A stretch of DNA of 64,000 nt from contig JANEZZ010002066.1 in NCBI GenBank assembly GCA_026122225.1, forward strand, positions 558,001 through 622,000, read 5' to 3'. Origin of the DNA: Heloderma charlesbogerti. Taxonomy: Eukaryota > Chordata > Lepidosauria > Squamata > Helodermatidae. Below are positions 2,039 to 59,216 of this stretch, piece after piece. The notes under the pieces were generated by a model. That model saw only the letters and a list, made by a program, of their open reading frames with translations, had not been told where the DNA came from and did not search any database. A program made the translations under genes and the position numbers. How positions within the stretch are numbered: position 1 is the first letter of the stretch; every line of letters starts with the position of its first letter.

Positions 2039-2866
2039 TAGGGGTGGACAAAAGTCCCTTACCTGATCCCAATGCTTGCTTCGTGGTGGGGGGGAGGCGC
2101 TCCGTCCCTCCCCACCGAAATTCTGGCCGGGGGGGAGGCGCCCTGTCCCTCCGGCCGCGAAACCTTGTCTCCTGCTGGGACGCAAATGGTGGCAGCTGTA
2201 GCCACCGCCGTTTGTGTCCCTGCAGTCAGCCATGATAGGCTACGTAAATGTTTACCTAGCCTATCACGGCTGACTTTAAAAAAAAAAAAAGCGCGTACGC
2301 AAATGGCGGCTCCCATGGCGGCGCCATTTGCATTCCTTATTTTGGCACATGTAGTCTACGTAAACATTTACGTAGACTACAGCGAAAATAAGGGCAACGC
2401 AAATAGTGTTGCCCCTATTTTCACCGTAGTCTATGTAAATGTTTACGTAGACTACACGTGCCCAAATAAGGAACGCAAATGGCGGCGCCCATGGGCGCCG
2501 CCATTTGTGTACGCACTTTTTTTTTTTTAAGTCAGTCATGATAGGCTACGTAAACATTTACGTAGCCTATCACGGTGTTTTAAAAAATCTAGCCGTGATA
2601 GGCTACGTAAATCTTTACGTAGCCTATCACATTTGTTTGTTGTTGTTGTTGTTTTACTTGGAAATGGTGGCGGCTGCAGCCGGTCGGAAGACCGGCCGCT
2701 GCCGAGCTGCCGCCAAAGCCGCCGCCACCAGGGACATTCAAGCAAGGTAAGTCCCGTCCCGGGGGGGGGGGCGGGGGGGCAGACCGTTTCTCCACCAATT
2801 TCGGGGGCCGAATGCGCTGGCATTCGGCCTCCCTGAGATTTGCAGAGAAATTCTCTGGCATCCCTA
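2039..2866 (+). mobile_element. GC-rich palindromic hAT element, copy A (complete)
   Basis: Starts TAGGGGTGGAC and ends GGCATCCCTA. It is flanked by an exact 8-bp duplication CTTACTTG (2031-2038 and 2867-2874), which together with the terminus type points to the hAT superfamily. Order: left terminus; ACTTACCTG block (outward 5' splice-site consensus on the minus strand, 2058-2065); two to three GGGGGGAGGCGC repeats; eight small palindromes (2224-2630); an ATG-led GC arm from 2664; CAAG/GTAAGT at 2743-2752; GGAGAAATTC-like end hairpin. It encodes no transposase, so it must be mobilised in trans. Confidence 0.88.
2224..2630. repeat. Nested palindrome array of copy A
   Basis: Eight hairpins are readable: ATAGGCTACGTAA type at 2224-2275, ACGCAAATGGCGGC type at 2291-2334, GTAGTCTACGTAA type at 2350-2381, central AAGGGCAACGC type at 2383-2426, then mirror copies at 2425-2458, 2474-2509, 2539-2572 and 2595-2630. 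The last is a near-perfect 36-bp palindrome. The whole block is itself an inverted repeat around about 2404, so it can fold as one long hairpin or many short ones. Confidence 0.9.
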
Positions 2867-6312: not shown

Positions 6313-6916
6313 TAGGGATGGCGGAAAATTCTGCCTCGGACTCCAATGAGGCCGGATTCTAAAGAATCCAGCCCCCCAGAGGACGTGGTGGAATGGAACA
6401 CTTACCTCCACCTCCCCGCAGAATCCTCTTCAGCCAGACCCTCTGGCTCCAGATTTCCAGTGATACGGCCGCCATGCCATATCGCTGGCTGAATGGACTG
6501 ACTGCAGACACAAATGGAATCCAGGATGCTATTTGCAGCCATAAACGCCTTAGTTTAAGGTAAATGCAGCCATAAATGGCTGCATTTAGCTTAAACTAAG
6601 ACCTTTACGGCCGCAAATGGCATCCTGGATGCCGTTTGCAGCCCTGTTTTTTCACGTGATAGGCTACGCAAATATTTGCATAGCCTATCATGTGAATGAA
6701 AAGCATGGATGCAAATGGCCACAGTCAGTCAAGTCCCCTTCAGCCAGCGATATGGCATGGCAGCCCTATCACTGGTGCTTCAGAGCTGGCTGGCAGCTCC
6801 GCAGAATCGCCGTGGAGTGGAGCCAGCTGAAGAGGATTCCGGGGGAGGAATGGATTGCCTCCCCCCTGAGGGCGGATTCCCCACAGACCGGAAGGTAAGG
6901 AATCCTCCCATCCCTA
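6313..6916 (+). mobile_element. Type-2 hAT element (complete)
   Basis: Starts TAGGGATGGCGGAAAATTC and ends CCTCCCATCCCTA, flanked by a perfect duplication GCTGTTGC (6305-6312, 6917-6924). An outward donor-like CTTACCTCCACC sits at 6411-6422 (minus) and GGAAG/GTAAGG at 6890-6899 (plus). The interior has a palindrome CTTAGTTTAAG..CTTAAACTAAG (about 6550-6600), a CAAATGGCATCC module and a GTGATAGGCTACGCAAAT hairpin (6655-6695). It shares modules with the GC-rich type but has different arms. Confidence 0.85.
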
Positions 6917-15792: not shown

Positions 15793-16721
15793 TAGGGATG
15801 GACGAAAGTCCCTTACCTGATCCCGATGCTTGCTTCACGGTGGCGGGGAAGCGCTCCGTCCCTCCCCCTGAAATTCTGGCTGGGGGGGAGGTGCCCCATC
15901 CCTCCCCAAAACAATTCTGGCCGGGGGGAGGCACCCCATCCCTCCCCCCCAAAATTTTGGCTGGGGGGAAGGCGCCCCATCCCTCCAGCCGCGAAACCTC
16001 CTCTCCTGCCGGGACGCAAATGGCAGCGGCCGTAGCCGCCGCCGTTTGCATCCCTGCAGTCAGCCGTGATAGGCTAAGTAAAAGTTTACGTAGCCTATCA
16101 CGGCTGATTGTAAAAAAAAAAAAACGCGTATGCAATTGGCGGTGCCCATGGGCGCTGCCATTTGCATTCCTTATTTTGGCACGTGTAGTCTACGTAAACA
16201 TTTATGTAGACTACAGCAAAAATAAGGGGAACGCTATTTGCGTTCCCCTTATATTCGCCATAGTCTACGTAAATGTTTACGTAGACTACACGTGCCATAA
16301 TAAGGAACGCAAATGGCGGCGCCCATGGGCGCCGCCATTTGCGTACGTGCTTTTTTTTTTTACAGTCAGCTGTGATAGGCTACGTAAACTTTTACGCAGC
16401 CTATCACAGTGTTTTTTTAAAATCTAGCCATGATAGGCTACGTAAATGTTTACGTAGCCTATCACGTTTGTTTGTTTGTTTGTTTGTTTTACTTGGAAAT
16501 GGTGGTGGTGGCAGCCGGTCGGAAGACCAGCCACCACAGCCGCTGCAGCCTAACTGCCGCCGAACCACCACCGGAGCTGCCGCCGCCAGGAACATTCGAA
16601 CAAGGTAAGTCCCGTCCAGGGGGGGCGGGGGGGCAGACCGTTTCTCCACCAATTTCGGGGGGCCGAAAGCACTGGCATTCGGCCTCCCCGAGATTCGTGG
16701 AGAAATTCTCTGATATCCCTA
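15793..16721 (+). mobile_element. GC-rich palindromic hAT element, copy B (complete)
   Basis: Starts TAGGGATGGACGAAAGTCCC, ends CTGATATCCCTA, flanked by an exact duplication CTTTAGTC (15785-15792, 16722-16729). Outward splice-like blocks at 15812-15819 (minus) and CAAG/GTAAGT at 16601-16610 (plus). Four GC repeats in the left arm; palindrome array about 16055-16466; ATG-led GC arm from 16499 with GCAGCCGGTCGGAAGACC. Closely related to copy A. No transposase. Confidence 0.9.
16055..16466. repeat. Nested palindrome array of copy B
   Basis: Same order as in copy A: one ATAGGCTA hairpin on the left, CAAATGGC pair, GTAGTCTACGTAA hairpin, central AAGGGGAACGC hairpin, the mirror images, and two ATAGGCTACGTAA hairpins on the right. 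A poly(A) run (16110-16123) on the left is mirrored by a poly(T) run (16351-16361) on the right. Confidence 0.88.
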
Positions 16722-18215: not shown

Positions 18216-19158
18216 GCTCTATCCAGTACATCATACTGGCACATGCAGCCAAATTTTCCCATCTGTTCCTGTTTCTATCCTTTACATGCTTTTTTAAGCC
18301 ATTTTGGTTACTGTGCTTCTATACAACTCGCCTTTTAAAGATGGCAATTAATTATCAAAGCCCTCCAAAGAGAAATAAAACTTTAGAGTCATTTTTCGTC
18401 TTGCAGCTTGATTGCGTCTTTGTTCTCCGGCGTTTGGTGATCTAATGTTCTGTAACAAACGTCTCTCCGATGCTCCGATTTCAAAGGCTGCCTGAACAGT
18501 TTTACAACTGTGCTCTCAAAATGAGCATAAGAGAGCTAAGTGGGCTGCTAAACTGCACTCTTCTTTGGAGATTTTGTTCCTAATTGGAGACCTGAAGTTA
18601 ATGAATTAAACAGGATTTTTACTTTATTTTCTTTTTTAAAGGAAGAGTGGGCTTTGACAAGCTAGCTGGATAGTAATTTGGTAGAAGAACTCTATGCTCA
18701 CCTAACTGAAGCTGTGTTGCTTCTGATGCTGTTTTATTGAGTGGACATTAGATTTCCCCAATGGGGGGGGGGAGATCCCCCCAGTGACAGGTCAACATAT
18801 ACAGGCTCCATATTAACAGTTAGATTTGTGGCCTGTATTTGCCAGTGGCTTGTGCTGCCAAAGAAATTGGTCATGTTTTCACCTTGGGAGTGAAGGGAGT
18901 GGAAGGCTCACTAACTTTTCGAGGTCACCTTCGAAGTCGGGCACATGCCCAAGAGAAGAATTAAAAAACCCATTCATATAAACAGTTTATCATCACAATC
19001 CCTGAGGCTGCTGTGTATTCTGTCTTGATCTTAACTGTCAGCAACCAAACTGCTTCCAGTAGCTCTTGCTGTCTCCAAAGTTTGGTTGTTGGTGCCAATC
19101 TAGGGAGGATTCCTTTAGAGCAGGGATTCTCAAATGGTGTGCCAAAACACAACATCAG
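18216..19158. other. Unassigned sequence, about 0.9 kb
   Basis: No recognised repeat over most of it. A segment GGATTCTCAAATGGTGTGCC (19124) resembles a Charlie-like hAT end but lacks a partner. No exon with plausible splice context was found. Confidence 0.4.
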
Positions 19159-19159
19159 G

Positions 19160-19245
19160 TACATAAGAACATAAGAAAAGCCATGCGGGATCAGACCAAG
19201 GGTCCATCTAGTCCAGCATTCTGTTCACACAGTGGTAGAAAGGGG
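19160..19245 (-). mobile_element. CR1-like LINE 3' end (TTCTTATG tail)
   Basis: Starts ACATAAGAACATAAGAAAAGCC and continues GGGATCAGACCAAGGGTCC and ATTCTGTTCACACAGTGG, the exact complement of the tail at 45190-45268. Confidence 0.65.
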
Positions 19246-19261
19246 GCTGGAATCTGCCTTG

Positions 19262-19790
19262 AAATATTTTAAGTAATCCTTTATTGATTGATTGATTTCT
19301 AAAACTTATAAACCTCCTTTCATCCACAAGGAATTCCAGGGAAATGTCCACAATTGCAAAACAAACATGCAAACCCCATATCATAAACATACAAACAACA
19401 ACTCTTCAGCCACTGAGCCAAACAAAAACAGAACCATTAAGCCAGTTTTAAAATAAATTAAATTTTAAATGGTTAAATGGTTAAATTCTAAAATATTAAA
19501 GCACTAAAATCTTGAAATGCTTGAGCAAACAGAAACTTTTTAATTTGGCTTTGAAAATGAAAAGGCAGCACCAATCATATCTCCTTTGGAAGGACATTCC
19601 AAAGTCACAGTGCCATTACAGAGAAAGCCCTCTCCTTTGTAAATGCATAGCGTATGTCTCCCACTGATGGTATCCGCAAAAGGCAGAAAAGGGCCTCCTC
19701 TGAAGATCTTAGTGCATGAGAAAGATAGTATGGGAGGAGGCAGTCCTTCAGGTATTTGGACCCCATTAAAAGCCATTTAGACCTATTAAA
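19262..19790 (-). mobile_element. L2-clade LINE 3' region
   Basis: Complement of an L2 tail at 19262-19330 (TTTATTGATTGATTGATTTC). The minus-strand frame at 19605-19776 resembles the L2 C-terminus (KERAFSVMAL, GSKYLKDCLLP). Frame broken. Confidence 0.55.
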
Positions 19791-20974: not shown

Positions 20975-22250
20975 TAGGGATGTCAAAGAAATCCGCCACG
21001 GGCCCCAGTGAGGCCAGATTCAATAGAATCCGGCCTCCGGAGTCCATGGTGGAATGGCACAACTCACCTCCGCCTCCCTCCAAAACCGTCCGGGGCCAGA
21101 TCATCCTCACAGTGACTCTGCAGACCTGCCAGCCAGCTCCGTATCTCCAGCGATAGGGCCACCATTGCCATGCCGTATCCCTGGCTGAAGGCTCATTCCG
21201 GACTCAAATGGTGTCCGCTATGCCATTTGCGGCCGTAAAGCTCTTAGATTAAAATGGCTTTATTTTAAATGGCTGCATTTAGCTTAAACTAAGGGCTTTA
21301 GGGCTGCAAATGTAGGGGTGTACGAAACTCAACTTACCTGGCTCTGCTGGGGTCCGCAGGTGGGGGGAGGCGATCTGTTCTCCCCCCCCCCCGGAATCCT
21401 GCCTGGCCGGCTCCACTCCACAGCCAGTCCGCGGAGCTGCCAGCCAGGACAACCCACAGCGGGGCCTCTGGCCGCTGCTGGGCTGCTGTGGACACAAATG
21501 GCATCCTGTGTAGGGGACACCATTTGCGTCCCTACGCTAGCCCATGATAGGCTACATAAATATTTACATAGCCTATCACAGATAAATATTTACGTAACCT
21601 ATCACGGCTAAAGCGGAAATGCAAATGGCATAGGGGACATCATTTGCATCCCTGCTTTAGCAGTGATAGGCTACGTAAATATATAAGTAGCCTATCATGG
21701 GCTAGAGGAGGGACGCAAATAGCAGCCACTACAATGGCCGCCACTTGCAGCAGCAGCAGCCCGACAGCGGCAGGAGCCGCCACTGCCACCGGTGCCACTG
21801 CATCCGCAACCAGGTAGGTCCATCCTGGGGGGATTCCGTGGGGGCGGGGGAAGCCATTCCATTACGGATTCCGGGGGGGGCGGATTCTAAAGAATCCAGC
21901 CTCACTGGAGTCCGTGGTGGAATTCTCCGCCATCCCTACGCAAATGGTGTTCACTACACCATTTGCGTCTGTGGTTTTTCCCGCCATCATTTACGGCTGC
22001 ATTTGGCTTAATCTAAGAGCTTTATGGCCGCAAATGGCGTAGCAGACGCCGTTTGCATCTGGCGTGAGTCGTCAGCCAGCAATACGGCATGGCAATGGCG
22101 TTCGTATCGCTGGTGCTACAGAGCCAGCCGGCAGCTCCGTGGAATCGCTGTGGAGCCAGCCGAACAGGATTCCGGGGGGAGGACCAGATTGCCTCCCCCC
22201 ATGGGCGGATTCCCCCCTGGAGCAGCAGGTAGGGAATCTGCCCATCCCTA
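20975..22250 (+). mobile_element. Type-2 hAT element (complete, hosts a second hAT)
   Basis: Starts TAGGGATGTCAAAGAAATCC, ends CTGCCCATCCCTA, flanked by TTTGTGGC (20967-20974) and TTTGTGGT (22251-22258). Outward donor-like ACTCACCTCCGCC at 21063-21075 and CAG/GTAGGG at 22226-22234. Internal palindromes with CTTAGATTAAAATGG / TTAAACTAAGGGC and CAAATGGCGTAGCAG. The element at 21313-21938 is inserted in its middle. Confidence 0.82.
21313..21938 (+). mobile_element. GC-rich hAT element nested in a type-2 hAT (copy R)
   Basis: Starts TAGGGGTGTACGAAACTC, ends CTCCGCCATCCCTA, flanked by TGCAAATG and CGCAAATG (7 of 8). Outward ACTTACCTGG (21332-21341) and CAG/GTAGGTC (21811-21820). It contains several CAAATGGCAT pairs and three GATAGGCTACRTAAAT hairpins, of which the one at 21578-21604 has lost most of its left stem. 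GCAGCAGCAGCAGCC at 21746 lies in the right arm. Confidence 0.82.
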
Positions 22251-26133: not shown

Positions 26134-26469
26134 TTTAAGCCGAAAGTTTGTAACAAGAAGCTCATGATCTGAGCCACAGTCAGCTCCAGGTCTTGCTTTG
26201 ACTGACTGTATAGAGCTTCTCCATCTTTGGCTGCAAAGGACATAATCAATCTGATTTCGATATTGACCATCTGGTGATGTCCATGTGTAGAGTCGTCTCT
26301 TGTGCTGTTGAAAAAGAGTGTTTGCTATGATCAGCGTGTTCTTTTGGCAAAACTCTATTAGCTTTTGTCCTGCTTCATTTTGTACACCAAGGCCATGCCT
26401 GCCTGTTATCCCGGTGATTTCTTGACTTCCTACTTTAGCATTCCAATCTCCTATGATGAAGAAGGGGAT

Positions 26470-26891
26470 TAGCGTTGGCCTTATTTTCGCCGTAGTCTAC
26501 ATAAATCTTTACGTAGACTACAGGGACCAAATAAGGAACGCGAATGGCGGCTCCCTATGGGGGCTGCCGTTTGCGTACGCGCTTTTTTTTTTTTTAAGTC
26601 ACCCGTGATAGGCTACATGATGATTAACATAGCCTATCATGGCTGACTTTGCAGATCTAGCCATGATAGGCTACGTTAATCGTCACGTAGCCTATCACGG
26701 GGCTTTTTTTTTTTACTTTTCTTTTGAAGTTCGCGGCCGGGGAGACGGGGCGCGTCTCCCTGGCCTGAATTTCAGCCAGGCGAGGCGGGAAGCCTCCCCC
26801 CCCGGCCTGAACTTCGGGGGGAGAAGCGAAGCGCCTCCCCCCCACCGCGAAGCAAGCTGCGACACCAGGTAAGTGACTTTCGTACATCCCT
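26470..26891 (-). mobile_element. GC-rich palindromic hAT, copy D (half element inside BovB)
   Basis: On the plus strand it begins in the exact middle of the central palindrome (AGCGTTGGCCTTATTTTCGCC) and runs through GTAGTCTACATAAAT, CGAATGGCGGC, two ATAGGCTAC hairpins and the GC repeat arm to CAG/GTAAGTGACTTTCGTACATCCCTA in pieces at 26864-26891. The other half, and BovB sequence between the 5' region and the endonuclease C-terminus, are deleted. Confidence 0.85.
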
Positions 26892-27128
26892 AGTTCCATG
26901 GGGTTTTCCTGGCAAGAATACTGGAGTGGGTTGCCATTTCCTTCTCCAGTGGACCACATTTTGTCAGAACTCACTGCCATGACCTGTCCGTCTTGGGTGG
27001 CCCTGCACAGCATAGCTTATGGCTTCACTGAGTTATGCAAGCCCCTTCGCCACAACAAGGCAGTGATCCATGAAGGGGCATCCAGCATGACCACTGAGTA
27101 AATTATTATTAATGGTGATGGTCATTTT

Positions 27129-30138: not shown

Positions 30139-31396
30139 TAGGGATGTGCACTTCAGCCAAATTCAAGTTCACCAGACTTCTCCAAACTGTCTCCTGAAAC
30201 TTGTTCTGAGTCAAGTCTGTATCAGATTGCAAGTTTTGTGTTTGGGGTTTGTTTGTTCGGTGGTAGCAAAATTGGTTGGTATGTTCGGGTGAATTTACCA
30301 AATGTATCCATCAACTGTGTGCATCTTTGAAATATATGCATTCTTCTCCCATTGATTAAATGTATTTGTGTGCATTTTTCAAATCTACGCATTTTTTCAT
30401 GTGCATTTTTCATAGGGATGTATGAAAGTCACTGACCTTTTCGCGGATTCTGTTCATGGTGGGGGAGGCGTTCCGTCCCTCCTCCCGGAATCCTTGACGG
30501 GGGGGGAGGTGATCCGGTCCTCCCCCCCCGGAATCCTCGACGGCCGGCTGTGCTCCGTGGTGGCTCCACAGAGCAGCCGGCCAGGCCTAGGCCAGGGCCA
30601 TGAGCAGCTGGATTTCCGGCCGCAGAGGGCTCTGGGTGTAAAAAAAAACAAAATGTGTATGCAAATGGCGGTGGCTACGGCCGCTGCCATTTGTGTTCCT
30701 TATTTTTCTTCGTCTTAGTCTATGTCAATATTTACATAGACTAAGATGAAGAAAAGAAAGGGGAACGCAAATAGCGTACTGGGCGCTATTTGCGTTTCCC
30801 TCTCTTGTCTTCATCTTAGTCTACGTAAATATTTATGTAGTCTAAGACGGCAAAAAATAAGGAATGCAAATGGCAGCAGCCGTAGCCGCTGCCATATGCA
30901 TACGTGTGTTTTTTTTTTTCCCCAGACATGATAGGCTACGTAAGTCTTTATGTAGCCTATCATGTCTATGGGGGGGGAGAAAAAAACACCGACTGCAAAT
31001 GGCGGCGGCGGCAGCCAGTTGGAAGACCAGCTGCCACCGCCGCAGCCTCCGCTGGAGCCGCCGCCATTCAAAACATCCACCCCAGGTAAGTCTTGTCCCG
31101 GGGGGGATCCATGGGGGGCGGGGGGGGCAGGCCATTCCATGATGGATTCCGGGGGGCCGAATGCACTGGCATTCGGCCTCACCAAGATCCATCGCAGAAT
31201 TCTCTGACATCCCTAATATTTCAACGGTATGAATGCTGTCAAACACTTTTTTTTTTCAGTCTGCAAATCACATTCCAAGTTCTGAAATGTACAACCTTGA
31301 CCTCAGATTGCTTCTTAGTCCATGCTCAGTTGGAAAGGTACATACTGGGTAAAATCCTGATCAAAACTGAACTGAAAAATGTCTCATACATTCCTA
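30139..31396 (+). mobile_element. AT-rich hAT MITE family X (hosts copy M)
   Basis: Starts TAGGGATGTGCACTTCAGCC and ends CTCATACATTCCTA. Flanks GGAGATAG / CGAGGGAG match weakly (5 of 8). Shares CCAAACTGTCTCCTGAAAC, ATTTACCAAATGTATCCATC and TGAAATATATGCATTCTTC with 1436 and 40967. The GC-rich element at 30413-31215 is inserted in it. Confidence 0.6.
30413..31215 (+). mobile_element. GC-rich palindromic hAT, copy M (complete)
   Basis: Starts TAGGGATGTATGAAAGTCAC, ends CTCTGACATCCCTA, flanks ATTTTTCA and ATATTTCA (7 of 8). The palindrome core uses the variant CTTAGTCTATGTCAATATT hairpin and GGGAACGCAAATAGCG centre. The right GC arm has GGCGGCGGCGGCAGCC and CCCAG/GTAAGTC at 31081-31091. The left splice-like block has decayed to CACTGACCTT. 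Confidence 0.85.
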
Positions 31397-35160: not shown

Positions 35161-35481
35161 TTATTACCTGCTTAAAAATGCAATTGAAAGGAAAAAACCT
35201 CGATTATGTTAGCCTTATCAGTAACTTTGGTGGTGGTGATAGGGGTGGACGAAAGTCCCTTACCTGTCGTCAAAGGATGTTCGCGGTGGGGGGGAGGCGC
35301 TTCGCCGCTCCCCCCCGCGAAGTTCAGGCTGGGGGGGGAGGCTTCCCGCCTCGCCCCGGCCGAAATTCAGGCCGGGGGGGAGGCTTCCCGCCTCACCCCG
35401 GCCGAAATTCAGGCCGGGGAGGAGGCTTCCCACCTCGCCCGGCCGCGAACGCGAAAGTTTAAAAGAAAAAAAACACGCCCC

Positions 35482-35941
35482 CTGATAGGCTACGTGACGA
35501 TTCACGTAGCCTATCATGGCTAGATCTGCAAAGTCAGCCGTGATAGGCTATGTCAATCGTCATGTAGCCTATCACGGGTGACTTAAAAAAAAAAAAAAGC
35601 GCATACGCTAATGGCGGCCCCCATAGGGAGCCGCCATTCGCATTCCTTATTTAGTCGCTGTAGTCTACGTAAATGTTTACGTAGACTACGGCGAAAATAA
35701 GGGCAACGCAAATAGCGTTGCCCTTATTTTCGCCATAGTCTACGTAAATCTTTATGTAGACTACAGCGACCAAATAAGGAATGGGAATGGCAGCTCCCTA
35801 TGGGGGCCGCCATTATCCATACGCGCTTTTTTTTTTTTAAAGTCACCCGTGATAGGCTACGTGACGATTGATGTAGCCTGTCATGGCTGACTTTGCAAAT
35901 CTAGCCGTGATAGGCTACGTGAATCGTCACGTAGCCTATCA
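35482..35941. repeat. 460-bp palindrome made of nine palindromes (copy E)
   Basis: Order: two ATAGGCTACGTGACG hairpins, a CTAATGGCGGC pair, a GTAGTCTACGTAA hairpin, the central GGCGAAAATAAGGGCAACGC hairpin (35690-35734), then the mirror order. The outer limits are equidistant from the centre at about 35712. A 14-nt A-run (35585-35598) is mirrored by a 12-nt T-run (35827-35838). The structure can fold either as a single cruciform or as nine separate hairpins. Confidence 0.93.
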
Positions 35942-35971
35942 GGGGGCGTTTTTTTTTCTTTCTTTCATTGG

Positions 35972-36083
35972 AATGGCGGCGGCGGCAGCCGGTCGAAAGA
36001 CCGGCTGCCGCTCCCGCCCCGCTCGAACACCCGCCGAACCGCCGGCCGGACCTGCTGCCGGGAGGGACATTCGGCGAAGGTAA
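35972..36083 (+). other. ATG-led exon-like GC arm ending at a splice-donor consensus
   Basis: A short frame begins MAAAAAGRKTG and runs 36 codons to a stop formed inside the G/GTAAGT motif. Equivalent frames occur at 2664 (MVAAAAGRKTG) and 38688 (MAGAAAGRKTG), so the arm has a common ancestor. A stem GCGGCAGCCGGTC / GACCGGCTGCCGC with GAAA loop lies in it. Whether it is ever transcribed or translated is unknown; alanine and arginine codons here follow from GC richness. Confidence 0.5.
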
Positions 36084-36281
36084 GTCCCGTCCCGGGGGGG
36101 GGTGCGGGGGGCGGGGGGGCAGAGGATTTCTTCCCGAAACTTGTTCACGTTGGCACTCGGCCCCCCAAAGTTTCGGGGAGAAATTCTCCGCCATCCCTAG
36201 GTGGTGATCACAACCTAAAATTGCCCTGTTCATGCAAGGTCCTCTGTCTTCTCCTTCCTTTAGATATAAGGGCCACACACG

Positions 36282-37958: not shown

Positions 37959-38923
37959 TAGGGGTGGACGAAAGTCACTTACCTTTTCTCGCAGCTTGTT
38001 CGCGGTAGGGGGGAGCGCTTCGCTGCTCCCCCCGTGAAGTTCAGGCCGGGGGGGGAGGCTTCCTGCCTCGCCCGGCCAAAATTCAGGCCGGGGAGGAGGC
38101 TTCCCGCCTCGCCCGGCCGAAATTCAGGCCGGGGAGGAGGCGCCTCGCCTCGCCCGGGCGCAAACGCGGAAGTAAAGAAAAAAAAAAACGCCCCCTGATA
38201 GGCTACGTGACGATTCATGTAGCCTATCACGGCTAGATCTGCAAAGTCAGCCGTGATAGGCTACGTGAATCGTCACGTAGCCTATCACGGGTGACTTTAA
38301 AAAAAAAAAAAAAAGCGCGTATGCGAATGGCAGCCCCCATAAGGAGCCGCCATTCGCGTTCCTTATTTAGTTGCTGTAGTCTACGTAAATGTTTACGTAG
38401 ACTACGGCGAAGATAAGGGCAACGCAAATAGCGTTGCCCTTATTTTCGCCGTAGTCTACGTAAACATTTACGTAGACTACAGCGACCAAATAAGGAACGG
38501 GAATGGCGGCTCCCTATGGGGGCCGCCATTATCCGTACACACTTTTTTTTTAAAGTCACCCATGATAGGCTACGTGACGATTGACGTAGCCTATCAGGGC
38601 TGACTTTGCAAATCTAGCTGTGACAGGCTACGTGAATCGTCACGTAGCCTATCAGGGGACTTTTTTTTGGTTTTTCTTTTATTGCAATGGCGGGGGCGGC
38701 AGCCGGTCGAAAGACCGGCTGCCGCTCCCGCCCCGCTCGAACACCCGACGAACCGCCAGCCGGACCCGCCGCCGGGAGGGACATTCAGGGAAGGTAAGTC
38801 CCGTCCTGGGGGGTGCAGGGGCCGGGGGGTGCGGAGGATTTCTCCCCGAAACTTGTTCGGGGGGCCGAACACGTTGGCGCTCGGCCCCCTGAAGTTTCAG
38901 GGAGAAATTCTCCGCCATCCCTA
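37959..38923 (+). mobile_element. GC-rich palindromic hAT element, copy F (complete)
   Basis: Starts TAGGGGTGGACGAAAGTCAC, ends CTCCGCCATCCCTA, exact duplication ATTGAGCA (37951-37958, 38924-38931). Outward ACTTACCTTTT (37977-37986, minus) and GGAAG/GTAAGT (38789-38799, plus). Four GC repeats in the left arm. Palindrome core 38195-38655 with the full nine hairpins. Right arm ATG at 38688 and GGCAGCCGGTCGAAAGACC. Nearly identical in plan to copy E. Confidence 0.92.
38195..38655. repeat. 461-bp palindrome made of nine palindromes (copy F)
   Basis: Symmetric around about 38426. Two CTGATAGGCTACGTGACG-type hairpins on each side, GCGAATGGCAGC / GCCGCCATTCGC pairs, GTAGTCTACGTAA hairpins and central GGGCAACGCAAATAGCG. 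The A-run (38298-38313) mirrors a shorter T-run (38543-38550). Confidence 0.92.
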
Positions 38924-38996: not shown

Positions 38997-39706
38997 TAGG
39001 GATGTCAGAGAATTCCGCCATGGATCTCAGTGAGACCGAATGCCAGTGCATTCGGCTCCCCGAAATTCGTGGTGGAACGAAGCCCAAATGCCCCCCCCCC
39101 CGCAAAATGGGCCCAGAACGGAGCACCTACCTGCTGCCATCCGCGCTGACTTGTGAATGGCAGCCGCGTCTGCGGCTGCCATTCGCTTCTTCCATATAGC
39201 TGTGATAGGCTACATAAATACTTTCGTAGCCTATCACAGCAAAACTGAGGGAACGCAAACAGCTGTGGCTATGGCAGCCGCCATTTGTATTCCCTTTTTT
39301 TTGCCGTTTTAGCCTACGTAAATATTTTTTACTGGGGCTGGGTTTAAAGATTATACTTGGGGCTGGGTTTTATTACAGCAAAAAAAAAGGGGAATGCAAA
39401 TGGCAGCCCCTACGCCATTTGCATTCTCTTCTCTCTTTTTTTGCCATAATAGCCTACGTAAATATTTACATAGCCTATCACGGCAAAATGCAGGGACACA
39501 AATGGTGGCTACGGCAGCCGCCATTTGCGTCCCTGCAGGCTGCCCAGTGGCTGGATGTCCGGCTACAGGCGGCCCTGGCTGGTGGCTCTGTGGAATGTCC
39601 ACGGAGCAGAGCCGGATGGAGAGAATTTTGGGGGGAGGGATGAAGCGCCTCCCCCCCACTGCAAATGTCACCCTTTGAAAAGGTAAGTGACTTTCGTACA
39701 TCCCTA
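38997..39706 (-). mobile_element. GC-rich hAT element, copy G (complete, reverse, with templated insert)
   Basis: Plus strand begins TAGGGATGTCAGAGAATTCC and ends TTTCGTACATCCCTA, exact duplication ATGAGAAT (38989-38996, 39707-39714). Outward blocks: GCACCTACCTGCTG at 39123-39136 and AAAAG/GTAAGTG at 39678-39688. Its second hairpin is broken at 39326 and followed by a 50-bp insert copied inversely from 39779-39805. The palindromes here use GTGATAGGCTACATAAATAC and CAAATGGCAGCC modules. Confidence 0.87.
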
Positions 39707-41839: not shown

Positions 41840-42678
41840 TAGGGATGTACGAAAGGCACTTACCTTTCATGGATTATGTTTATGGTTGGGGGGGAGGCGT
41901 TCCGTCCCTTCCCCCGGAATCCTTGCTGGGGGGGAGGCACGCCATTCCTCCCCCCCGGAATCCTGGCCAGCCGGCTGTGCTCCGCAGGGATTCTGCGGAG
42001 CCGCCGGCCAGCTCCGCCAGCAGCCGGACATCTGACCGCTGGCTAGCAGGGACGCAAATGGCGGCGGCCACAGCCGCTGCCATTTGCGTCCCTTATTTTG
42101 GCACGTCTTAGTCTACGTCAACATTTATGTAGACTAAGACGGCGAAAATAAGGGGAACACAAATAGCATAGACGCTACGCTATTTGCGTTCCCCTTATTT
42201 TCGCCGTCTTAGTCTATGTTAATGTTGTCGTAGACTAAGACGTGCCAAAATAAGGAATGCAAATGGTGGCGGCCACGGCCGCCGCCATTTGCTTATGTGC
42301 ATTGTTGTTGTTGTTTTTAAAAAAGTCAGACAGGATAGGCTACGTAAACATTTACGTAGCCTATCACAGTTTTTTAAAAAAACCTAGCCGTGATAGGCTA
42401 TGTAAATCTTTACGTAGCCTATCACTTTTTTTTTTTTTAACTGGAAATGGCGGCGGCCGGTCAGAAGTCCGGCCGCCGCAGCTGCCACCACCGAACTGCC
42501 GCCACCGAACCGTCGCCGGAGCCGCCGCTGGAGCCGCCACCGCCAGGAAGATCCGCCCAAGGTAAGTCTCGTCCCGGGGTGGCAGGGGGGCAGGCCATTC
42601 CACCACCGATTTCGGGGGGCCGAATGCACTGGCATTCAGCCTCCCCGAGATCCGTGGTGGAATGTTCGTACATCCCTA
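41840..42678 (+). mobile_element. GC-rich palindromic hAT element, copy H (complete)
   Basis: Starts TAGGGATGTACGAAAGGCAC, ends TTCGTACATCCCTA, exact duplication CTGAAAAC (41832-41839, 42679-42686). Outward ACTTACCTTTC (41859-41868) and CCAAG/GTAAGTC (42558-42568). The core uses CTTAGTCTACGTCAACATT hairpins; right arm stem GGCGGCCGG / CCGGCCGCC at 42450-42477. Two ATAGGCTACGTAA hairpins on the right, none on the left. Confidence 0.92.
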
Positions 42679-43823: not shown

Positions 43824-44736
43824 TAGGAATGTACGAAAGTCACTTACCTTTTTGAGGGTGACATTCATGGTGGGGTGGAGGCCCTCCATCCCTCCCCCCT
43901 GAATCCTGGCCAGCCGGCTCTGCTCCGCTCCGCAGGGATTCTGCGGAGCCACTGGCCGGCTCCGCCAGCGGCCAGACATCCAGCCGCTGGCTAGCAGGGA
44001 CACAAATGGCGGCCGCCATAGCCGCCGCCATTTGCATCCCTGCAGTCAGCAGTGATAGGCTACGTAAATGTTTACGTAGCCTATTACGGCTGATTTAAAA
44101 GAAAAAAACGCGCATATGCAAATGGGCACCACCATTTGCGTTCCTTCTTTTGGCACGTCTTAGTCTACGTAAACATTTATGTAGATTAAGGCGGCGAAAA
44201 TAAGGGGAACACAAATAGCATAGCGTCTACACTATTTGCGTTCCCCTTATTTTCGCCGTCTTAGTCTACGTAAACGTTTACGTAGACTAAGACATGCCAA
44301 AATAAGGAACGCAAATGGCGGTGCCCATGGGCGCCGCCATTTGCATACGCACGTGTTTTTTTTTTCTTTTAAATCAGCCATGATAGGCTACATAAATATT
44401 TACGTAGCGTATCACGGTGTTTTTTAAAAATCTAGCCCTGATAGGCTACGTAAATCTTTACATAGCCTATCACATTTTTTTGTTTTGTTTTGTTTTTAAC
44501 TGCAAATGGTGGCGGCGGCAGCCGGTTGGAATACCGGCCGCCGCTGCCACTGAACCACAGCCGCCGCCGCCAAACCGCTGCCACAGACGCCGCCGCTGCC
44601 AGGAAGATCTGCCCAAGGTAAGTCCCGTCCCGGGGGGGGCGGGGAGGGGAGACCGTTCCACCACCGATTTGGGGGGGCCGAATGTGCTGGCATTCGGCCT
44701 CCCTGAGATCCTTGGTGGAATTCTCTGACATCACTA
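43824..44736 (+). mobile_element. GC-rich palindromic hAT element, copy I (complete)
   Basis: Starts TAGGAATGTACGAAAGTCAC, ends CTCTGACATCACTA, exact duplication GATAGAGG (43816-43823, 44737-44744). Outward ACTTACCTTTT (43843-43852) and CCAAG/GTAAGTC (44614-44624). Core 44044-44473 with CTTAGTCTACGTAAAC hairpins and one ATAGGCTA hairpin left, two right. Both termini carry a single substitution. Confidence 0.9.
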
Positions 44737-46290: not shown

Positions 46291-47712
46291 TCATATCAGG
46301 AGCACCCTTGCTGCCTTCTGAAATCCTCAGGTAGCCAGAATCAACACACAGACAATAGGGCTCTTTTCCAAGGCTTTATTTCCATTCAACTTAATGACGC
46401 TTACAGATGCTAATTGCAGGAGCCTAATGAGAGAAACTTAAGAGAGCTGCCTACTTGGGGTTTCTAGCCTTGGTGAATCAGTTGATCTCCATTTGGAAGT
46501 AAAGGTGGGAAGCCTCTGAACTTAGGGATGGGGGAGAATTTCTCCACAAATCTCTGGGAGGCCGAATGCCAATGCATTCGGACCCCCGAAATTGGTGGTG
46601 AAATTCTCCGCCACCCCCCCGCCACCCCCCGGGATGGGACTAACTCCTTCGAATGTCCCTCTCGGCGGCAGGTCTGGGCAGCATTTCAGCGGCGTTTCGG
46701 CGGGGGCGGCAGCCAGTCTTCCGACCGGCTGCCGCCGCCGCCATTACAAAGTAAAGTAAAAAACAAAAAACAAACACGTGATAGGCTACGTAACGATTTA
46801 TGTAGCCTATCACGGCTAGATTTTCAAAGTCAGCCATGATAGGTTACGTAAATCTTTATGTAGCCTATCACGGGGGACTTTGGGGGGAAAAAAAGCGCGT
46901 ACGCAAATGGCGGCGCCATTTGAGTTCCTTATTTGGGCAGGGGTAGTCTACATAAATCTTTACTTAGACTACCCCTGCCCAAACAAGGAACACAAATGGC
47001 AGCGCCCATGGGCACCGCCATTTGCATACGCGTGTTTTGTTTTTTTTCAAAGTCACCCGTGATAGGCTACGTAAAGATTTACGTAGCCTATCACAGCTGA
47101 CTTTGAAAATCTAGCCATGATAGGCTACGTAAATCGTTACGTAGCCTATCACATGTGTTTTGTTTTGTTTTTACTTTACTTTTTTTATTTCGCGGCCAGG
47201 GAGACGGGGCGCTCCGCCCTGGCCTGAATTTCGGCGGTGAGGGATGGGGTGCCTCCCCCCCAGCCTGAATTTCGGCTGGGAGGGGCGGGGCGCCTCCCCC
47301 CCACCAAGAACTTCGGGGGGAGAACCGAAGTGCCTTCCCCCAACTGCGAAGCAAGCTGCGGGACCAGGTAAGGGACTTTCGTCCATCCTTATCTGAACTT
47401 AAGGGCTAGGAGGTGAAAGTCCACCCCTTTCCCGTGGGGCATCAGGGCACAGCTGTTGATGCCGTGCCAAGCAGGCTGAGTGCCACCATCTCCCGTTTGT
47501 CCTTACGCCAGCACCTAGCATCCTGAAACTCCAGTTGTCCCTCCCCCTGCCCGCCAGGGTCGCTACCACTCACAGGAATGTGGTCAGGGAGGGGCTGTCC
47601 CTCCGGCGGCACCTCTGAACAGCGCGCAGGTTCCTCTCCCACGGTTTCTATCTCTTCCTCAGAGTCAGGACTGCTTTGGGGCTCTATGGGCTCTGATCTA
47701 ACCCTGACGCAT
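46291..47712 (-). mobile_element. LTR remnant (reverse), split by hAT copy J
   Basis: In reverse it parallels the solo LTR at 51591-52120: GTCTGTGTGTTGATTC, an AATAAA signal (complement at 46374-46379), CTTAAGTTCAGA, CTGACTCTGAGGAAGAG and GAGCCCATAGAG. It replaces nothing in the CR1, which is continuous apart from a few bases at CAT. No internal gag-pol region, so it is a solo LTR. Copy J lies at 46523-47391. Confidence 0.75.
46523..47391 (-). mobile_element. GC-rich palindromic hAT element, copy J (complete, reverse)
   Basis: Plus strand starts TAGGGATGGGGGAGAATTTC, ends TTTCGTCCATCCTTA, exact duplication TCTGAACT (46515-46522, 47392-47399). Outward CCAG/GTAAGGG on the right (47364-47373); the left block has decayed to GGGACTAACTCC. 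GC arm stem GGCAGCCAGTC / GACCGGCTGCC. Core about 46777-47156 with two ATAGGCTACGTAA hairpins each side; the central palindrome is missing, leaving fused GTAGTCTAC hairpins (46946-46976). Confidence 0.9.
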
Positions 47713-51089: not shown

Positions 51090-52427
51090 TAGGGATGTGA
51101 GAGAATTCTGCCACAGATCTTGGTGAGGCCGAATGCCAATGCATTCGGCCCCTCAAAATCCATGGCAGAACGAAGCCCCCCACCCCCCCACCCCACAAAA
51201 GGTGCACAAAACGGAGCACTTACCTGCTGCCATTCGCACTGTTTTGTGAACATTCGCTTCTTCATTATAGCTGTGATAGGCTACATAAATACTTACGCAG
51301 GGATGCCATTTGCATCCCTATGGAGGCCGTGATAGGCTATGTACATATTTACGTAGGCTATCACGGCAAAAAAAAAAAAAAAGGAACGCAAATGGCAGCG
51401 GCTACGGCGGCCGCCATTTGCCTTCCCTGTCTTTTGCCGTGATAGGCTATGTAAATATATACGTAGCCTATTACGGCAAAAGACAGGGGTGCAAATGGCA
51501 TTTACGCCCCTGTCTTTTGCTGTAATAGGCTAGATAAATATTTATGTAGCCTATCACAGCAAAAAAAAGGGAACACAAATGGTGGCCACCTGTCAGGGTG
51601 GACACTGAGCCCATAGAATCCCAGAGTAGTTCTGATTCTGAGGAAGAGGAGTTGCTCCTGGGAGAGGAGCACGCTCCTCTTTCCCAGGGCTAACAGCTGA
51701 TGGAGATTCCTCCCACCAGCATTCCTAGCTTAAATAGCAGTCCTGGGAGTGACAGAGCGCGGGAACCAGACTTGATGGACGCGCGACGCCAACGCAGAGA
51801 GCGGCACCAAATGGAGGGCGCAGAAAGGAGGCGTAGTGCCCGGTTGGCGGGCAAACAATGGCTGCGCCCAGAGGATCCAAGGGAAAAGGGGAGGGACTCT
51901 CCCTAGTCCTTAAGTTCAGGCGTCTGCCAGTAATTCCCTTTCAAACGGGGACCAACTGTTCCAACGTAGGGCATAGGTACTCTGCTGCTCATATCTAGTT
52001 GCTAACAGTAGAGTTGTTAAGTTGTAAAAGAGGAATAAAGCTTTGAAAAGAATCCATTTGTCTGTGTCTGGACTTGGCTACTGGATTAGACTGAGAGAGG
52101 CCTCCAAGGAGCCCTTGACACCACCGTAGCTGCTGCCATTTGCGTTCCCTTTTTTTTTTTTGCCTTGATAGGCTACGTAAATATTTACGTAGCCTATCAT
52201 GGAAAAATACAGGGATGCAAATGGTGGCGGCTACAGCAGCCGCCATTTGCATCCCTGCAGGCTGCCCAGCGGCCAGATGTCCAGCTGCGGGCGGCCCCAG
52301 CTGGCGGCTCCACAGAATCTCTGCAGAGTGGAGCCAGCTGGAGAGAATTTCGGGGGGAGAGATGGAGCACCTCCCCCCACCGCAAATGTCACCCTTCGAA
52401 AAGGTAAGTGACTTTCGTACATCCCTA
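51090..52427 (-). mobile_element. GC-rich hAT element, copy K (complete, reverse, carries solo LTR)
   Basis: Plus strand starts TAGGGATGTGAGAGAATTC and ends TTTCGTACATCCCTA. Flanks GGCAGTCA (51082-51089) and GTCAGTCA (52428-52435). Outward blocks GCACTTACCTGCTG (51217-51230) and AAAAG/GTAAGTG (52400-52409). Several GTGATAGGCTAYGTAAAT hairpins; the first, at 51271-51302, is cut in half. The LTR at 51591-52120 sits between two CAAATGGTGGC modules. Closest relative: copy G. Confidence 0.85.
51591..52120 (+). mobile_element. Solo LTR inside hAT copy K
   Basis: Starts TGTCAGGGTGGACA and ends GAGCCCTTGACA (TG..CA ends), flanked by an exact 5-bp duplication CCACC (51586-51590, 52121-52125). A TATA-like TTAAATAG at 51730 and an AATAAA at 52034 place U3-R-U5 in the usual order. 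Length 530 bp. No internal region, so it arose by LTR-LTR recombination. Ends and size fit a Gypsy-type LTR; the class cannot be proven from an LTR alone. Confidence 0.85.
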
Positions 52428-55971: not shown

Positions 55972-56880
55972 GGATGTAGGAGAAATTAGTTTCAGTTCAT
56001 TTTTTATCAGGATTTACCCAGTTGACACCTTCTGGACTGAACACAGACTCTGAAGCAATCTGCAATCTAAATCTGTAGATTTCTGAACTTGCAATGTGAT
56101 TCGCAGACCAGCAAAATGCATTTCAAAGCACATGCACCTTCAAAAAATGCTGATGAAAAATTTTTCATATTTATACACTTTATCAATGGGGAAAGCATGC
56201 ATAGATATCAAATATGTGCACAGTTGATGTGTACGTTTGGGAAAATATGCACAGGGATGGATGACTCACCTCTGTCTGGTTTCACCGGGTGCTTGCCAAG
56301 CCACTGCCCACCCTAGCTTGCCATGCCAGCCACCAGGGTGCCCGGCAAGTGCCTGGCGAGCTCTGTGGGGCTGCACATCCTCTTAGAAAGCTGCCATTTT
56401 GTGCAAAAATGGTGGCTTGCAAGTTTCCAGATATGTAATGTTACCTACATAGTGGCCATAAAGGGGCGATTTATGCAACATTAAGGTATAAATGGACCAT
56501 TTAAACCTGTAATGTTGCATAAATAGTCCCTTCACAGACACCATCTACATAACATTACATATCTGGGAACCCCCAAGCCACCATTTTTATGCCAAATTGT
56601 GGCTCCCTAAAAGGATGGGCGGTCGCCGGATACTCATGGAACACGCAGGCATTCAGCGAGTGGGTCCAGTGAGTGGCAGGGCCTGGGAGGCCAGGCTGGG
56701 GGGAGCCCATCAGACTCTACCCCCTTCGCAGAGTCCTGCAACATCCCTAAATATGCATGAAAATATACATGATACACATGCAAAAAGGAAAAAAAAACAA
56801 AGCTTGCAATCTGATATGGACTCGAGTAGGAATGAGCTTTGAGATGGATTTCAGAGAACTTCTGCAAGGCCGGGTTTTGC
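55971..56880 (-). mobile_element. AT-rich hAT MITE family X, reverse (hosts another hAT)
   Basis: Plus strand begins TAGGGATGTAGGAGAAATTAG; ACCTTCTGGACTGAACACAG, CAATCTAAATCTGTAGATTTC and, after the nested element, AGCTTGCAATCTGATATGG and GAGATGGATTTCAGAGAAC read as the reverse of 30139 and 40967. The right border is approximate. Confidence 0.6.
56252..56749. mobile_element. AT-rich hAT MITE nested in family X (complete)
   Basis: Starts CAGGGATGGATGACTCACC and ends CTGCAACATCCCTA, with a perfect duplication AATATGCA (56244-56251, 56750-56757). An outward donor-like block ACTCACCTCTG lies at 56264-56274. The centre is made of GTAATGTTRCATAAAT inverted repeats. Confidence 0.85.
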
Positions 56881-58426: not shown

Positions 58427-59216
58427 TAGGGATGTCAGGGAATTCCACGACAGATCTCGGTGAGGCCGAATGCCAGTGCATTCGGCCCCCCGAAATCCAT
58501 TGTGGAATGGCCTGCCACCCCCCCCACCCCCCACGGATCCCCCCCGGGATGAGACGTCCTTGGGGCGCATGTTCCAGATGGCGGTGGCTCCAGAGGTGGC
58601 TTCAGCGGTGGCAGCGCCGCCATTTGCAGTCTGTGTCTTTTTCTTTTTTTTCCCCCATAGATGTGATAGGCTACATAAAGACTTACGTAGCCTATCATGT
58701 CTGGGTTTAAAAAAAAAAAAAACGTGTATGCAAATGGCAGCGGCTAAGGCCACCGCCATTTGCGTTCCTTATTTTTTGCTGTCTTAGTCTATGTCAATAT
58801 TTACGTAGGCTAAAACGGTGAATCAAAAGGGAACGCAAATAGCGTCCAGAATGCTATTTGCGTTCCCCTTTCTTCTATTCGTCTTAGTCTACGTAAATAT
58901 TGACATAGACTAAGACGGCGAAAAATAAGGAACACAAGTGGCGGCGGCCGTAGCCACTGCCATTTGTGTACATGTTTTTGTTTTGTTTTTTACCCAGAGC
59001 CCTCCGCGGCCAGAAATCCGGCTGCGGATGGCCCTGGCCTGGGCGTGGCCAGCTGCTCCGCAGAGCCGCCACGGAGCACAGCCGGCCATCGAGGATTCCG
59101 GGGGGGAGGATCAGATCGCCTCCCCCCCGTCGAGGATTCCGGGGGTAGGGATGGAATGCCTCCTCCCCACCATGAACAGAATCCACGAAAAGGTAAGTCA
59201 CTTGTGTACATCCCTA
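58427..59216 (-). mobile_element. GC-rich palindromic hAT element, copy L (complete, reverse)
   Basis: Plus strand starts TAGGGATGTCAGGGAATTCC and ends TTGTGTACATCCCTA; flanks ACAGTTAG (58419-58426) and AGAGTTAG (59217-59224). Right outward AAAAG/GTAAGTC (59188-59198); the left block is decayed. The core uses CTTAGTCTAYGTAAATATT hairpins; only one ATAGGCTA hairpin (58664-58698). Nearly the mirror orientation of copy M. Confidence 0.87.

Follow-up and report, generated by a model that had tools for sequence, protein, structure and literature searches.

A hAT MITE of Heloderma charlesbogerti with a core formed by mirror duplication of a subterminal palindrome array

Members of the E family are hAT MITEs, and what makes them unusual is a core in which a subterminal palindrome array is duplicated in mirror image. 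Alignments to a 10-kb hAT element of the same genome show, at the level of sequence, that the 460-bp palindrome of copy E consists of the left array of that element plus an inverted copy of it, with the turn at the central module P5. The best joint explanation, to which we assign a probability of a little under 0.6, is that the module X is a dyad binding site, that the left array was mirror-duplicated by snap-back, and that the arms were later re-matched.

Results

Copy E and its palindromic core

E is a non-autonomous hAT element (MITE) in the window, i.e., the whole stretch of 64,000 nucleotides of H. charlesbogerti DNA that was analysed. The copy letters are our own naming and may differ from those of the first-pass annotation. 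That annotation had assigned E to the hAT elements, in agreement with the 8-bp TSDs and the ends TAGGG..CCCTA; the full TIRs of the family are TAGGGRTGG / CCAYCCCTA, which we take to be short hAT-type TIRs. hAT MITEs are short and non-coding, with short TIRs, a high copy number, and ends in common with autonomous hAT elements. The same is seen here, as E comprises 960 bp, has no recognisable long frame in the ORF listing, occurs in many copies, and has its left 543 bp in common with an autonomous-type element. Its two ends do not both match the same autonomous element, since the MITE right flank is unlike that of the one autonomous copy read whole. In foldback elements, the inverted repeats are terminal; E has no long inverted repeats at its very ends, and its arms are internal.

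The 460-bp core had been described as symmetric around about 35712. We find the axis at ~35712, with outer arms of 131 nt (35467-35597/35827-35957) and inner arms of 101 nt (35609-35709/35715-35815), both 93% complementary, which together occupy element positions 228 to 718 of 960. The predicted fold has −245.6 kcal/mol compared with −56.1 (sd 4.1) in 100 dinucleotide shuffles and is thus 46 SD lower. The sub-blocks are also present as palindromes (local hairpins cover 282 of the 960 bases, against a mean of 2.4 and a largest value of 33 in 100 shuffles), but not all of them are as clean as first described: some in the cores of E and F are imperfect, and a strict hairpin finder (score ≥9) returns four core hairpins in E, with P4-P5-P4' taken as one, and six in F.

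The core is built from four related palindromes, namely X (TGATAGGCTACGTRA..TYACGTAGCCTATCA), Y (AATGGCGGC..GCCGCCATT), X' (TAGTCTACGTAAA..TTTACGTAGACTA), and the central Y'. In E and F, the order is X X Y X' Y' X' Y X X (Table 1). With up to three mismatches, the X pattern occurs 40 times in the 64-kb window and not once in 100 shuffles; among viral contigs, it has no exact match. As the earlier annotation stated, this layout exceeds what hAT terminal repeats need. Among the matches listed from the openly licensed literature, none describes a named family with this palindrome-of-palindromes plan, and the four literal module strings do not occur in the literature searched. Splice-donor-like sequences of the AGGTAAGT type are located at 35258-35265 and 36078-36085, facing outward near both ends of E, and are also present in other copies.

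Table 1 Features of copy E and of further family copies, in window coordinates
Feature	Position	Strand	Basis
Copy E, complete non-autonomous hAT element, 960 bp, TIRs TAGGGGTGG / CCATCCCTA	35240..36199	+	ends, TSD
TSD GGTGGTGA of copy E	left 35232..35239, right 36200-36207	.	sequence
P1, X module, outermost left, centre ~260 bp from left end	35483..35516	.	hairpin finder, X positions
P2, X module	35538..35577	.	arm comparison, X pattern scan
P3, Y module	35610..35638	.	hairpin finder
P4, X' module, half-sites TAGTCTACGT	35645..35702	.	sequence, module order
P5, Y' module, midpoint of long palindrome, proposed turning point	35701..35723	.	arms, fold
P4', mirror of P4	35722..35779	.	sequence, module order
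P3', mirror of P3	35786..35814	.	sequence, module order
P2', mirror of P2, imperfect in E	35847..35886	.	arm comparison, X pattern scan
P1', X module, outermost right, centre ~275 bp from right end	35908..35941	.	hairpin finder, X positions
Right flank of E, including GC-rich hairpin 35975-36018	35955..36199	+	arm comparison, hairpin finder, partner comparison
Part of E in common with left 543 bp of 10-kb hAT element	35240..35780	+	88.7% identity
Second arm of E, inverted match to 10-kb element positions 543-230	35644..35954	-	87.1% identity
Copy F, same subfamily as E, TSD ATTGAGCA	37959..38923	+	ends, module order
Copy A, eight modules, TSD CTTACTTG	2039..2866	+	ends, module order
Copy C, eight modules, TSD CTTTAGTC	15793..16721	+	ends, module order
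Copy K, eight modules, one Y damaged, TSD GATAGAGG	43824..44736	+	ends, module order
Copy J, seven modules, TSD CTGAAAAC	41840..42678	+	ends, module order
Copy L, 7/9 modules (P4, P5 deleted; P3' damaged), TSD TCTGAACT	46523..47391	-	ends, module order
Copy H, six modules, TSD with 1 mismatch	30413..31215	+	ends, module order
Copy N, six modules, TSD with 1 mismatch	58427..59216	-	ends, module order
Copy I, related subfamily, X 243 and 223 bp from its ends, TSD ATGAGAAT	38997..39706	-	ends, X positions
Copy M, related subfamily, TSD with 1 mismatch	51090..52427	-	ends, X positions
Copy D, related subfamily, TSD with 1 mismatch	21313..21938	+	ends, X positions

Other copies in the window

A module order common to the copies had been proposed. 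It applies in full to E and F, which carry all nine modules; the others keep the order but with modules missing (A, C, and K are without the first X), and B is truncated. The nine-part plan is a feature of the E-type subfamily and is not universal among the copies. X itself is also present in other subfamilies (copies D, I, M, and O), and a different hAT element at 6313-6916 (TSD GCTGTTGC) carries X only once, at a distance of 243 bp from its right end; the stem of this X shows one two-sided change. The 8-bp TSDs are perfect in E, F, A, C, I, J, K, and L.

Three further observations concern the surroundings. At 26468-26892, a family copy stops abruptly beside a BovB-like LINE frame, with half of the core remaining. 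At 20975-22250, copy D is apparently inserted in another hAT-like element whose outer TSD has one mismatch. At 56252-56749 lies a MITE-like element with the TSD AATATGCA and the ends CAGGGATGG/ACATCCCTA, in which X is absent at ≤6 mismatches. The reverse-transcriptase frames of the window are presumably CR1- and BovB-like, and in this the window resembles squamate DNA.

Genome-wide copies and consensus

The genome searched comprises 2.30 Gb in 3246 contigs. With E as the query, the best 40 of 9219 first-look candidates were scored, E included; 39 span positions 1-960 and one spans 1-950. As all 40 also match the core on the reverse strand, the long palindrome is kept in these copies. With A as the query, all of the best 40 of 14044 candidates likewise match the core on the reverse strand, and several forward matches begin near position 50; both lists are ranked by similarity to a palindromic query, which biases them toward palindromic copies.

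The E-type consensus was built from 38 rows, i.e., E, F, and 36 fetched copies. L030, a duplicate of L029, was left out of it as well as of the singleton-rate and quartet-state analyses. In its 468-bp core, the long stem has 224 pairs (95.7%) and the local hairpins have 164 pairs (70%), with the long register taken from the consensus fold, which favours the long level. Nine hairpins are visible in a short-span fold of the consensus. The proposal that both levels are kept is thereby borne out for the consensus. Among the 37 fetched E-type copies with both ends found, the TSD is perfect in 33, has one mismatch in two, and is absent in two; both members of the duplicate pair L029/L030 are counted here, and L027, whose ends were not found, was dropped.

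Family sequence covers 6.5% of the bases in 20 samples of 10 kb, placed at round-number positions on five large contigs that were each named by an E match, compared with 19.5% of the window. The window is thus unusually dense in family copies. X was found in 12 of the 20 samples.

L029 and L030 (C2306:15232-16271 and 18569-19607) lie in opposite orientation with the same TSD and the same divergence, and a match on C562 scores the same as one of them. The pair is either an inverted duplication or an assembly artefact.

The autonomous-type partner

A search of the genome for PF05699 gave 150 scored matches of 871 candidates. Among these, 17 are in stop-free frames of 870-910 residues, eight of which have exactly 879. 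One of the 879-aa frames, which combines zf-BED (PF02892) with hAT dimerisation (PF05699), belongs to an element of 10,069 bp (C3039:705682-715750) that has a perfect 8-bp TSD (ACTGAAAT) and shares its ends with the MITE. This element is likely the autonomous partner of the E-type MITE. The best three of 62 transposase relatives (7995 candidates scored) are squamate proteins with 43-46% identity, one of them named ZBED4-like. The transposase regions L068 and L069 fall short of the element ends.

In MITE orientation, the first 543 bp of the 10-kb element are 90.7% identical to the first 540 bp of the E-type consensus, and consensus positions 404-715 match element positions 543-230 in inverted orientation with 89.9% identity. 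The direct and the inverted match overlap at the symmetric centre. The left array of the element reads X X Y X' Y', followed by an X'-like hairpin in direct orientation and then by unique sequence; its short palindromes are perfect or near-perfect, and neither the alignment nor a reading of the sequence revealed a long palindrome in this left end. Five further left ends beside 879-aa frames all begin with the same terminus, and all five carry P1 and P2. Since its left 543 bp correspond to the left half of the consensus, the small palindromes represent the native subterminal array, and since autonomous left ends carry X without the long palindrome, the short ones are independent of the long one.

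This bears on the earlier proposal that both levels are kept so that the nucleic acid can switch between one cruciform and several hairpins. The short palindromes are those of the autonomous left end and the long one is an inverted duplication; therefore, the levels differ in history and the switch is unsupported, the more so as changes follow mainly the long level (see below). A switch is not needed to explain the history of the core, and it may be physically possible.

The right end differs. Against the last 2000 bp of the autonomous copy, the MITE right flank has no match beyond 26 bp, and the last ~28 bp of both look alike by eye. Judged from this comparison of sequences, the right end of this autonomous copy is not the source of the MITE right flank. 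The half-site AGGCTACGTG has a single occurrence in the 10-kb element beyond its left 640 bp, at a distance of 303 bp from the right end; when the last 600 bp were mononucleotide-shuffled 300 times, 1.3% of the shuffles contained a match at ≤1 mismatch. The autonomous right end thus has one half-site and no X palindrome.

The 10-kb element also contains a Myb_DNA-bind_4 exon (PF13837, E 1.9e-12), which in MITE orientation spans positions 1191-1535, runs in the opposite direction to the transposase, and is followed by the splice-donor-like GTAAGT. This Myb/SANT-like exon is intact in three of the four copies read.

Which palindrome level changes together

Four equivalent positions, i.e., the two arms of a hairpin and their mirror images, form a quartet, in which the state x x y y follows the short level and x y y x the long level. 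Quartets were counted in the E-type consensus and 16 other elements, one of which (L050) has a single usable quartet. Outside CpG, 588 quartets were obtained: 466 are all alike, 56 have a single difference, 16 are of another kind, and 50 are divided two against two. Of these 50, 43 follow the long level, four the short level, and three neither (direct), with the register again taken from the consensus fold, which favours the long level; quartets are not independent events because related elements share history. At CpG, the respective numbers are 17, two, and four. Of the 62 quartets in the consensus itself, eight break pairing in the short hairpin and none in the long stem. Most two-sided changes outside CpG follow the long palindrome, several of them breaking short hairpins; on the ratio of 43 to 4, we reject the view that recent co-change takes place mainly at the level of the short hairpins.

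Other counts were made in smaller sets. A first count in ten window copies, CpG included, gave 11 long, seven short, and four direct same-letter doubles. Among the 38 E-type rows, double changes outside CpG affect 11 long pairs (4.1 expected under independence) and three short pairs (1.2 expected). In the 10-copy alignment, 41 of 231 long-stem pairs have two-sided changes (shuffled mean 24.8, 0/500 as high), as do 22 of 188 pairs of the short structure (shuffled mean 14.9, 3/500 as high). One site of P2/P2' illustrates the pattern: its state is C G G C in most E-type copies, A G G A in B, L055, and L056, T G G T in L047, and G G G G in L044 and L045, so mirror co-change recurs here with different letters. 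F, L041, and L043 show single-step states, and asymmetric or irregular quartets exist, e.g., at P1 in L014, L022, and L023.

The two arms of one element are 85-93% alike, and in 10 of 11 elements, they resemble each other more than either resembles its counterpart in the E-type consensus; only F, which is of the same subfamily as the consensus, differs in this. In an arm tree of 12 elements with both arms, the arms are sisters only in K, L055, and L056; the left arms of A and C, H and N, and L and L047 group by side. As most arms are not paired by element, re-matching is infrequent at best. Within subfamilies, the arms would thus diverge separately, with symmetry restored only now and then, either by templating between the arms or by a new inverted duplication.

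In inserted copies, the core decays like the flanks: singleton rates outside CpG are 0.57, 0.61, and 0.64% for left flank, core, and right flank. With equal rates, we reject extra correction of, or selection on, the core after insertion. An apparently halved core rate outside CpG (1.64 vs. 3.30%) disappeared for singletons outside homopolymers.

Position and conservation of X

Measured to the centre of the module, the distance between the outermost right X and the right end is 223-286 bp in all 14 copies (mean 262, SD 17); for the outermost left X and the left end, the distance is 211-291 bp (mean 248, SD 21) in 12 of 16 copies. An X near 250 bp from the left end is missing in H, J, and N, which have only X' there, and in the 6313-6916 element, which has none. 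The mean pairwise identity of X is 87.5%, compared with 60-63% for the flanks and about 48% for globally aligned random sequence, and in each of the 91 pairs, the identity of X is higher than that of the right flank. In D, I, K, and M, X is located ~250 bp from the left end, though their left flanks match E only over the first 76-93 bp.

Dyads that are conserved and keep a steady distance to the ends resemble cis-acting transposition sites, and X may well be a dyad site bound by the transposition machinery. The conserved spacing may also reflect shared ancestry. On that reading, the palindromes arose by template switching and persist by self-correction and common descent, and X has no cis function. 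The right flanks are homologous among subfamilies, so that spacing can be inherited; the decay of inserted cores is like that of flanks; and mirror co-changes at the long level, some of which break short hairpins, resemble templated correction rather than selection. Yet X keeps its high identity where the flanks diverge, stays in place in D, I, K, and M beside unmatched left flanks, and occurs in the autonomous element as short palindromes without the long one. We therefore consider a mere by-product of folding back unlikely, while ranking it first among the alternatives.

In Hermes, a hAT element, cooperative binding by two BED domains takes place at subterminal repeats that form a palindromic pair, each end is required over about 220 bp, and another palindromic pair begins at bp 276; mutation of the interior left-end repeats leaves about 70% of the activity (PMC10368747, from the available part of the text). 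Because the same text considers auxiliary transposase binding within the ends unlikely, we only infer a binding role for X.

Discussion

Under the preferred reading, binding site plus snap-back duplication, two steps suffice to turn an ordinary transposon end into a palindrome of palindromes. A hAT element would have carried a left array of dyads that is read during transposition. During replication or gap repair, a strand would have folded back at P5, and hairpin-primed synthesis, the presumed mechanism, would have copied from P5 outward through P4, P3, P2, and P1 to give the second arm, in keeping with the junction seen in the alignment. The inverted copy, to which a right end of different origin was then attached, would have given the MITE a matching array on that side. 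This product, with X about 260-275 bp from both ends, would then have been amplified; in the source lineage, the arms would have been re-matched by templating or renewed duplication, and X would have stayed conserved about 250 bp from the ends as a bound transposition site.

A more elaborate proposal is that two proteins recognise the ends: the BED transposase and the Myb/SANT-like protein would both read the dyad array, and the self-correcting inverted array would have aided the spread of the MITE. If so, the palindrome of palindromes would have helped the family to fill several per cent of a reptile genome. We regard this as speculative and rather improbable.

Less probable again is that X is read by another protein, either the Myb/SANT-like protein of the autonomous element or a host factor. 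PIF/Harbinger elements, which are two-protein elements, provide the model for Myb/SANT reading. The Myb_DNA-bind_4 exon adjoins the array and is undisrupted in three of four copies, and the Hermes work, in the part available, disfavours interior transposase binding (PMC10368747); against this, a single exon was read, its membership in transposition is suggested by position, and it may be a captured host exon. A function in RNA, with the long stem processed as dsRNA or the hairpins acting as structured RNA, is very improbable: the core fold is very stable and one family of human microRNAs is described as having originated from a MITE (PMC1784062, consulted in part), but an Rfam search gave nothing at gathering thresholds and the autonomous element is without the long stem.

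The family can be placed among known systems. Tol2/Angel-type elements are hAT elements with large internal inverted repeats and resemble the E family in this respect; nested palindromes are not known from them. Compared with hAT MITEs such as mar of Drosophila (PMC3517528), the core here stands out as a mirror duplication of a subterminal palindrome array. The likeness to Hermes lies in the BED-bearing transposase, the palindromic pair of subterminal repeats, and the roughly 220 bp needed per end; its sites, however, are 4-bp repeats near the tips, whereas 34-bp palindromes form an array about 250 bp from the ends here (PMC10368747, available part). Foldback elements (Tm1 of nematodes; PMC3169594, seen in part) have long inverted repeats as in E, but unlike theirs, the inverted repeats of E are internal and accompanied by short hAT TIRs.

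The same genome contains an autonomous-type partner whose transposase frames are open, which makes it possible to test directly what subterminal dyads do in hAT transposition. In addition, the subfamilies together form a natural record of mirror-image change. In Arabidopsis, a Ds-associated inverted repeat was formed with excision, which ties hAT activity to new mobile inverted repeats (PMC1978519, in the part consulted). The Ds case is an adjacent inverted repeat in one experimental line, whereas E is an amplified family.
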